The notes below the pieces were generated by a model. The model was not told the DNA's origin. It did no database searches and saw only the letters and a program-made list of their open reading frames with translations. From Candidatus Methanomethylophilaceae archaeon (GTDB lineage Archaea; Thermoplasmatota; Thermoplasmata; Methanomassiliicoccales; Methanomethylophilaceae): DNA of 64,000 nucleotides. The position numbers and the translations under genes are program-made. The stretch's first letter is position 1. Every line of letters starts with the position of its first letter. Below are positions 27,622 through 59,010 of the stretch, piece after piece. Location of the stretch: positions 1 to 64,000 of the forward strand of contig JAFYAH010000016.1 in assembly GCA_017540825.1 (NCBI GenBank), written 5' to 3'.

Positions 27622-28185
27622 ATGAAGTTCCCGCCGTCGACGGACATCAAGAGGATGAGGAAATCCATGGACGTGACGCAGACCTGCCTCGCGAAATAGT
27701 CAGGTATCGGGCAGAGCACCATCGCCAAGATAGAGCAGGGGAAGATTTCCGCCAGCTACGCCACCGTGGTCAAGCTCTTCGAGACGCTAGAGGCCATGAA
27801 GCAGGAAGGACTCAAGGACCTGACCGCATCCGACGTCGCGTCTAAAGGGGTGGTCACGGTTCAGAGCTCGGAGAGCGTGCTCCGCGCCTCCGAGATCCTC
27901 AGGAGCACTGGATATTCCCAACTGCCTGTGATGGACGGCGAGGTCCCGGTCGGGAGCATATCGGAGAGGGACCTGTTCGACATGCTGAGGCAGGGCTTCA
28001 CGATGGGGCAGATGAGGTCCACCCAGGTCTCCAAGGTCATGAAGGAGTCTTTCCCGATAGTGTCGGACAGCACCCCGATGGCGCTGGTCACCCTCCTGAT
28101 GAGCGACAGCAACGCGGTACTCGTAGCCCAGAAAGGAAAGGTCACAGGGCTGATAACGAACGCGGACATGCTGAAGCTCATATGA
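27622..28185 (+). CDS. XRE helix-turn-helix plus CBS-pair regulator with in-frame amber codon
   Basis: ATG 27622 opens MKFPPSTDIKRMRKSMDVTQ, the start of an archaeal XRE-CBS regulator. Codon 26 is TAG (27697-27699), between TCLAK and SGIGQSTIAKIEQGKISASY. Relatives have a continuous helix-turn-helix here (pattern LAxxSGVSQSxIAKIE), so the frame is clearly one gene. Two CBS motifs follow (residues about 68-125 and 130-187; KGVVTVQSSESVLRASEI and LVTLLMSDSNAVLVAQKGKV), likely binding adenosyl ligands. Read with pyrrolysine, it has 187 residues; the alternative is a pseudogene or a shortened CBS-only protein from GTG 27766. It is divergent from the SAM synthetase gene. Confidence 0.85.
27697..27699 (+). 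other. In-frame TAG, codon 26 of the XRE-CBS regulator
   Basis: Lies in the turn region directly before SGIGQSTIAKIE of the helix-turn-helix. Conserved helix-turn-helix sequence on both sides makes a sense reading very likely. Confidence 0.8.
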
Positions 28186-54049: not shown

Positions 54050-55078
54050 ATGGGGCCTTCCTCACTGCCTCAAGGTCGGCGAGGCGGCATGGACGCTCTG
54101 CTCTACAACAATTTCGAGATCACACCGTTCGAATCGGGCCTCAGATACTCCATCATCGGCCCTGACGGATCGACCGATGTGATGAACTATCCTTTCGAGG
54201 GGTTCGTCGTGAACCATATGGTCACGGACATGCCGAGGTTCTCCAACAGGAACCAAATCGGCCACATGAACTACATCATGATAGACTGCACGGTGCGCGG
54301 TAGGATGACCATAGAGTACAGCGGAAAGCATCTGTCCCTGTCGCCCGGCAGCGTCGTCATCTATTACCCGGTGAGCGTGCAGTCGTTCATGACCGTCCAC
54401 ACGGAAGGATACGAGTCGATCACCATCGGAATAGACCTGGACAGATACGGCATCCTGCCCGAAGACGCCGATATGGAGCCTGTCGGCGCTGTCGGGCGGT
54501 TCGTTGAGCAGCACAAGGACAGGCCGCTGTGGCCTTTGAGGCTGCCAGACAGGCCCATGGCCGACGTCATAGCCATCTAGAGGGCCTTGGTTCGTCCTGA
54601 GAGAAGGGCGCTGATCCATGCTCTCGTGGACGAGATCCTGGAAGACCTTTCCGAGCCGCTGGACGCTCGCTCCGAGGGGATGGTCCTGACAGATTACGCG
54701 AAAAGGGAGGACCGGCTGTACGACAGGCTGGCGTCTTGCTACGACCGCCCATGCAACATGAGGGAGGCATGCCTGGACCTCGGCATGGACAGATGCAACA
54801 TATGCTCGTCCTTCTCGAAGGTGTACGGGGATACGCCCTACGCATTCCATAAGCGCCAGAGGATGCTCTGTGCCTCCGGCGAGCTGATGGTCGGCGACGA
54901 GCCCATCGGGGCGATCGCGAACGGCATCGGCTTCCAGAAGGAGAGCAAATTCGCCGAGGAGTTCCAGAAGATGTTCGGATGCACCCCCAGCCGGTTCAGG
55001 AAGAGGTGCCGCAGTATGCTCGACGGATCGTCCCGCATCGACAGCCGAAGCGGCCGTCCTGCCGGCTCCCGAGGTTAA
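54050..55078 (+). CDS. AraC-family regulator with in-frame amber codon
   Basis: A 342-codon gene divergent from the uptake operon. The N-terminal part (NFEITPFESGLRYSIIGPDG, then LSPGSVVIYYPVSVQSFMTV) is an AraC-type ligand-binding region. Codon 177 is TAG (54578-54580), between PMADVIAI and RALVRPERRALIHALVDEIL. The C-terminal part has the double helix-turn-helix: CNMREACLDLGMDRCNICSS and EPIGAIANGIGFQKESKFAE...FGCTPSRFRKR. Without read-through the protein would lose its DNA-binding domain. AraC regulators are uncommon in archaea; transfer from bacteria is likely. ATG 54089 is an alternative start. It stops at TAA. Confidence 0.85.
54578..54580 (+). other. In-frame TAG, codon 177 of the AraC regulator
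   Basis: Lies between the ligand-binding and DNA-binding halves. Both halves are in the same frame with no other stop, and the second half has no ATG start nearby and no ribosome-binding site. Confidence 0.75.
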
Positions 55079-57381: not shown

Positions 57382-59010
57382 TCAGAACTTGAACCCGAAC
57401 AGCTTTATCCCCTTCTTCTCCTGGGGCTGGTCGCTGCTCCCGGAGGACGATCCCCCCTTGTAAGCGACCTTCGTCTTCGAAGGGAAGACCTCCGCGCCCA
57501 GGGTGGAGTCCTTGCCGAGCGTGATGGAGTCCAGGGCCGTGCATCTGGTGAAGGCGCGGTCGCCGATCGCCACCGCCGAGGACGGCATGGAGACCGACGA
57601 GAGGGACGTGCATCCGGCGAACGCGCCGGTGCCGATGGCGTTCAGGGACGAGGGGATCGATATCGAGTGCAGGGCGGTGCATCCCGAGAACGACTTGTCC
57701 CCCAGCTTTGACAGCGAGGACGACAGGCCGACGGAGGAGAGCTTCGTGCAGTCGCGGAAGGCCCCCTCCCCCACGGATGTGACCGAGGATGGCATGGACA
57801 CCGAGCACAGGGAGTCGCACCCCTGGAACGCGAAGTCCCCGATGGTCGCGAGGTTGGGCGACATGGTCACCGAGGAGAGGGCGTTGCATTCGCGGAAGGC
57901 CCCCTCGCCCAATGAGGTCACCGAGGGGGGCATGGACACCGACGACAGCGCGGTGCATCCCTGGAACGCGCGCTCCCCTATGGTGGTCAGCGACTGGGGG
58001 AGGCTCACGGAGGCGAGCGCGGTGCACCCGGAGAAGGCGCTCCTCTCTATGGATATCAAAGAAGGCGGCAGAGTCACGGAGGCCAGGGACTTGCAGTCCG
58101 AGAACATCCCCCTCTCCAAGACGGCCAAGGAAGTCGGCAGGGTGATCGCAGCCAAGGACCTGCAGCCGGAGAACGCCCCGTAGTCTATGGTCTTCACCGA
58201 GGGCGGGATCATCGCCTTCGAGAGCGACTTGCACCCCGAGAACGCGTCCTTCCCTATCGACGTCACCGAAGGGGGGATCTCTATGGACTCCAGCGAGGTG
58301 CAGCCCTGGAACGCGCGGTCGCCGATGGACTTCACCGACGGCGGTATGTTTATGCTGACCAGCCTCTTGCATTCCCGGAACATGTCCCTGTCGATCTTGG
58401 AAGTCCTGGGCGGGATTGTGAACGTCTTGAAGCCCTTTATGATCATGCGCAGGGGCCTGGTGCACTTCCCCCCGGAAGAGGCCTTCTCGAACCATTTCAA
58501 GGCCTCGGAGTCGGACTGCAGGCGGGTGCTGTTTGAATAGATGTACGAGAGCTTGTACTGGGACTAGACGTCCCCCTTCTTGGCCAGGTTCAGGACGACG
58601 TCGAAGATCATGAAGTCCATCTGCTCCTTCTTGAAGGGGGTGCCGGAGAGGATGCAGCTGTTCTCCAGCGAGCGGACCGCGCTCTCCGGAGGGTCGGCTA
58701 TCGGGAAGTCGCTCTTCATCAGCTCGCTGACGCCGTCTATGCGCCATATGTCCGCGTCGGCGGCGTTTATGGAGATGAGGTTCTTGGTCATCTCGAGCGC
58801 CTTGTCGAACTCGCCCTTCTGGCAGTAGGCGGCGGCCAACGGCTTCAGGCTGGCCCTCTGCTCCTTGACGGACATCTCGATGTTGATATGGTTTACATCC
58901 TTCGTGACGAGGACCTTGGAGCCACAGTACATGCAGAAGCCGAACTCGCGGGAGTCGTCCAGGTCTATGTCGCCGGCGCAGTTGGGACATTTGAGCGAGA
59001 CTAAAGCCAT
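57382..59010 (-). CDS. Zinc-ribbon, Sel1-repeat and leucine-rich-repeat (BspA-like) protein with in-frame amber codon
   Basis: ATG 59010 begins MALVSLKCPNCAGDIDLDDS, a zinc ribbon (CPNC...CMYC). A helical region follows, ending NLAKKGDV. Codon 149 is TAG (58564-58566), then SQYKLSYIYSNSTRLQSDSE and ALKWFEKASSGG. These two sides together form one Sel1 repeat (A..GD-x-xQY.L...Y......D..EA.KWF.KA...G). About 14 BspA-type leucine-rich repeats (SIxIPPSVxSIGDxAFxGCxSL) fill residues about 190-520. It stops at TGA. BspA-like repeats mediate adhesion or protein contact; no signal peptide is seen, so it is probably cytoplasmic. Without read-through, the LRR part would have only a TTG start. Confidence 0.85.
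58564..58566 (-). other. In-frame TAG, codon 149, inside a Sel1 repeat
   Basis: The TAG interrupts the consensus GD-x-xSQYKL of a Sel1 repeat at a position usually held by a polar residue. This places the codon within a folded domain and strongly supports a sense reading. Confidence 0.85.

Follow-up and report, generated by a model that had tools for sequence, protein, structure and literature searches.

A gene on the reverse strand of the window (here, the whole stretch of 64,000 nucleotides analysed) raises the question of whether a TAG codon in its frame ends the protein or is read through as an amino acid. The coding sequence (57382–59010, minus strand) opens with an ATG and encodes 542 residues followed by a TGA stop, and its sole interruption is a TAG at codon 149 (58564–58566, minus strand), at which standard-code automatic annotation splits this zinc-ribbon/leucine-rich repeat (LRR) gene into two. 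With TAG taken as sense, a gene finder based on codon usage, for which 745 kb of the same genome served as training data, called 57385–59010 exactly. The coding score over the 50 codons on each side of the TAG is +1.03 bits per codon before it and +0.68 after it.

Reading of the TAG codon

A comparison with 102 genomes from the family gave three further species in which the N-terminal part of the protein has a close orthologue (64–72% identity over residues 1–190), each with exactly one TAG. This TAG falls at codon 149 in 3/3 orthologues, with an ungapped alignment across the codon (GD[VA]-TAG-[SA]QYKL[SA]Y), and the frame stays open past it until a TAA or TGA in all four orthologous genes, the one in the window included. 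A stop-free homologue from a fifth species, that of Tb.RUG.172, holds AAG (Lys) in the TAG column, and two stop-free paralogues hold arginine (GDVRAQ) and glutamine (GDVQAQ). Homology thus runs straight through the in-frame TAG. The dN/dS ratios (Nei–Gojobori) are 0.10–0.35 before the TAG and, over the 48 aligned codons after it, 0.26–0.37 in five of the six pairs and 0.77 in the sixth (the window against genome G057); selection is purifying both before and after the codon.

The machinery for decoding TAG is also encoded in this genome, which comes from a gut-type methanogenic archaeon and holds a complete pylTSBCD set. On contig C68, a tRNA-Pyl with the anticodon CUA adjoins the pyl protein genes, and PylS, PylB, PylC, and PylD all score over curated domain or equivalog cut-offs, PylS by matching the C-terminal model, the form expected in Methanomassiliicoccales. 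The mtmB gene on the same contig has an in-frame TAG of its own. The stretches holding the 41 above-cut-off tRNA matches were scanned with ARAGORN, and no second CUA-anticodon tRNA was found in them besides tRNA-Pyl. Residue 149 is, by inference, almost certainly pyrrolysine, and the sense reading of the TAG, already proposed in the sequence-only reading, is strongly supported by the orthologues together with the pyl genes of the genome.

If the TAG were instead a true stop, the locus would be either a pseudogene or two genes, one for the zinc-ribbon/TPR portion and a following one for the LRRs. The standard code, in which TAG terminates, speaks for this, and so does an ATG in the same frame about 60 codons downstream, which encodes the M of DMFR and is common to the four orthologues. 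Nevertheless, a true stop is very improbable: the same TAG recurs in four independent assemblies, selection is purifying from the TAG up to that ATG, the stop-free homologues run on without interruption, and a full pyl gene set is at hand. Decay of the sequence behind a stop is specifically disfavoured by the homology through the TAG and by the low dN/dS behind the codon. As for a sequencing error or a chimaeric assembly, it is true that the source is a draft genome of 73 contigs, but RGIG6046 (from sheep omasum), Tb.RUG.20, and SIG7, each a separate assembly, have the identical TAG, which makes such an error scarcely credible.

It is thus highly probable that TAG-149 is a sense codon decoded via tRNA-Pyl, giving a single 542-residue protein, and that it arose from AAG and has been tolerated since. 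Under this model, PylB, PylC, and PylD would make the pyrrolysine, PylS would charge it onto tRNA-Pyl (CUA), which would decode codon 149, and the ribosome would continue to the TGA at 57382, producing a zinc ribbon, TPR/Sel1-like helices, 14 LRRs, and a short tail; read-through is presumed to be efficient. The codon would have originated by one base change in the ancestor of the four related species, the direction of change being most likely from lysine codon to TAG, and it would persist by inheritance, the exposed beginning of the helix being a place that accommodates a lysine-like residue.

Domain architecture and position of the TAG residue

The N-terminus of the protein holds a zinc ribbon (residues 7–30, with C8, C11, C26, and C29; 58921–58992, minus strand), whose CPNC...CMYC motif is clear by sequence, as previously proposed, even though every Pfam zinc-ribbon match is below the cut-off. 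All four cysteines are invariant across the four TAG-bearing orthologues and the stop-free homologue (L189). The zinc ribbon is followed by TPR-like helices (residues 48–122; 58645–58869, minus strand), suggested by weak TPR matches and by an AlphaFold2 model with pLDDT mostly of 76–88 in this region. The model as a whole, built on five sequences in the alignment, has a mean pLDDT of 84.7.

The BspA-type LRRs (residues 196–518; 57457–58425, minus strand) are certain from the profile search, where LRR_5 (PF13306) reaches 330 bits against a gathering cut-off of 27.7. The model contains 14 LRR strands with a 23-residue period, in agreement with the earlier count of about 14, and the fold search likewise recovers an LRR fold, the closest solved one being 4fs7 (TM-score by target 0.79, 34% identity). 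The C-terminal tail (57385–57453, minus strand) appears disordered (pLDDT about 30) and ends in EKKGIKLFGFKF, an ending kept in the alignment by those relatives whose sequence reaches that far; the pattern KKG-x-x-LFG-x-K recurs among relatives.

Between the TPR-like helices and the LRRs lies a Sel1-like helical hairpin (residues 149–181; 58468–58566, minus strand), in which the TAG residue is position one. Its match to Sel1 (PF08238) spans profile positions 2–35 of 36 at 22.9 bits, under the Pfam gathering cut-off of 30.7. The region is nonetheless supported as a genuine Sel1-like unit, judging from paralogue L054, whose Sel1 match at the corresponding place exceeds the cut-off with 33.2 bits, and from solved Sel1 proteins, which match the protein weakly. 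The sequence-only reading had held that the two flanks of the TAG join into one complete Sel1 repeat and that this split repeat was the strongest proof of sense reading. The first statement is barely true, as the repeat begins more or less with the TAG residue, and the second falls away, since the match starts at the TAG residue and the repeat is nearly complete without the residues upstream. The part after the TAG, taken alone, already covers profile positions 3–35 at 21.9 bits. In the AlphaFold2 model, the helices lie at 148–160 and 167–180, residue 149 being at the start of a helix, and the predicted hairpin begins at the TAG residue.

Is pyrrolysine needed at residue 149?

The conservation of the TAG is unremarkable at the divergence of the four orthologues, because 15 of the 38 columns directly after it are also invariant, as are 6 of the 19 window lysines within the first 200 columns. 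With the TAG conserved no better than its neighbours, the alignment gives no sign that pyrrolysine chemistry would be required at this residue. It is distinctly unlikely that a pyrrolysine at 149 has been kept for a function, whether through a binding or chemical role of its ring within the helical domain or through a TAG that ties production of the LRRs to pyrrolysine supply.

A leaky stop acting as a switch is unlikely as well. Such a switch would yield a 148-residue zinc-ribbon/TPR product and, when pyrrolysine is abundant, the full LRR protein. In any cell that uses pyrrolysine, tRNA-Pyl and the release factor could plausibly compete, and the TAG, which four species conserve, sits at a boundary between helical hairpins. 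However, this conservation does not exceed that of the neighbouring columns, the homologue has an ordinary lysine codon, and no convincing conserved RNA element was found after the TAG (orthologue consensus of −8.6 kcal/mol, with a covariation term of 0).

The TAG at codon 149 can be compared with the methylamine methyltransferases MtmB, MtbB, and MttB, which share an in-frame TAG read by tRNA-Pyl and of which mtmB is present in the same genome. In those enzymes pyrrolysine is catalytic, whereas in this repeat protein it would stand where a helix begins. The reading of in-frame TAG as pyrrolysine in ordinary proteins is a known phenomenon, of which this site is a well-supported further example; a 2025 publication reportedly described archaea in which every TAG is read in this way. 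The site offers a case in which TAG and a lysine codon can be traced at one place among related species and, if pyrrolysine is confirmed, it would join the small number of pyrrolysine sites beyond the methylamine methyltransferases as a conserved, non-catalytic one.

In Ca. Methanomethylophilus alvus, from the same order and also with pyl genes and in-frame TAGs in ordinary proteins, 16 pyrrolysine proteins besides the methyltransferases have been predicted, and about half of them have TAG-free homologues (Borrel 2014, PMC4153887, as far as its accessible text goes). Compared with that set, as described there, the TAG at codon 149 is traced over four species, with a lysine codon as its counterpart in a homologue; the accessible text makes no mention of this protein.

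TAG use elsewhere in the genome

In a 745-kb sample, table-11 ORFs were counted if at least 25 further codons preceded the next TAA or TGA. Coding-like sequence continues beyond the stop in 25 of the 37 ORFs ending in TAG, against 40 of 315 ending in TGA and 5 of 34 ending in TAA; it is therefore usual past TAG and not past the other two. Certain TAGs of the genome may still terminate genes. The aligned TAG set from the gene finder includes some doubtful frames, but in three well-supported genes, those for RNA polymerase A', an integrase, and a single-stranded-DNA-binding protein, the TAG-free orthologue has lysine at the TAG site. A first genome-wide count of 482 "conserved TAGs" was discarded, as these were mostly outside genes, in antisense shadow frames, where they looked conserved because third codon positions coincide in one antisense frame.

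The gene for RNA polymerase subunit A' (L078:2462-5413, on G000:C13) has a TAG at codon 24 (IR-TAG-MS), a site that is lysine in solved archaeal structures and in relatives. It was considered as a case of obligatory read-through in an essential gene and rejected as indecisive, because a TAG-free second copy is present at G000:C48:40468-40794, with 91% identity in the first 109 residues. Two A' copies in one methanogen genome, found also in G057, are odd, suggesting either duplication or a mixed assembly. One TAG each, matched by TAG in G057, is found in the genes for an MgsA-type ATPase (L069:915-2273), a PHP/RNase P p30-like protein (L121:14154-14813), and a NADAR protein (L073:8642-9073), and a 980-residue protein with no Pfam match (L120:6423-9362) has two TAGs, both kept in G057 at only 40% identity. 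Within the window, an AraC-type regulator (54050–55078, plus strand) has an in-frame TAG at 54578–54580, which separates the N-terminal part from the HTH domain, and an HTH and CBS-domain regulator (27622–28182, plus strand) has one within the HTH domain, at about codon 26.

Cellular role and paralogues

The architecture had been taken as unusual for an archaeon and perhaps concerned with contact to a host or partner. As to the former, Sel1 and LRR proteins are already known from Methanomassiliicoccales: Sel1 proteins are noted in the accessible text of PMC4153887, and that of PMC7883539 counts the repeat classes of Sel1/LRR "eukaryote-like proteins", for which adhesion was inferred. Those proteins share the order and the repeat classes with the window protein, but that text describes neither a TAG nor the zinc-ribbon architecture.

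Host contact is unsupported and rests on analogy with secreted BspA-like proteins. The LRR_5 fold is shared with the BspA-type proteins 4fs7 (Bacteroides ovatus) and 4gt6 (Faecalibacterium prausnitzii), the latter annotated as a cell-surface protein, whereas the window protein starts with a zinc ribbon, neither a signal peptide nor a membrane helix is evident by eye in its sequence, and an N-terminal hydrophobic helix is absent from the AlphaFold2 model. It is most likely an intracellular protein-binding scaffold. Gene context gives no function, because none of the neighbours in the flanks examined is common to the window and the orthologues.

Paralogues with the same domain order are present in the genome. 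L054 has hydrophobic segments close to its C-terminus, and L053 (1425-2861, on G000:C21) has Sel1 repeats over the Pfam cut-off and a TAG of its own in a different place, at residue 276. Relatives of the N-terminal zinc ribbon are also encoded in Ruminococcus records (L194, L195, L196, and L198), in two of which, L196 and L198, the zinc ribbon is followed by hydrophobic segments and the genes stand in tandem pairs.
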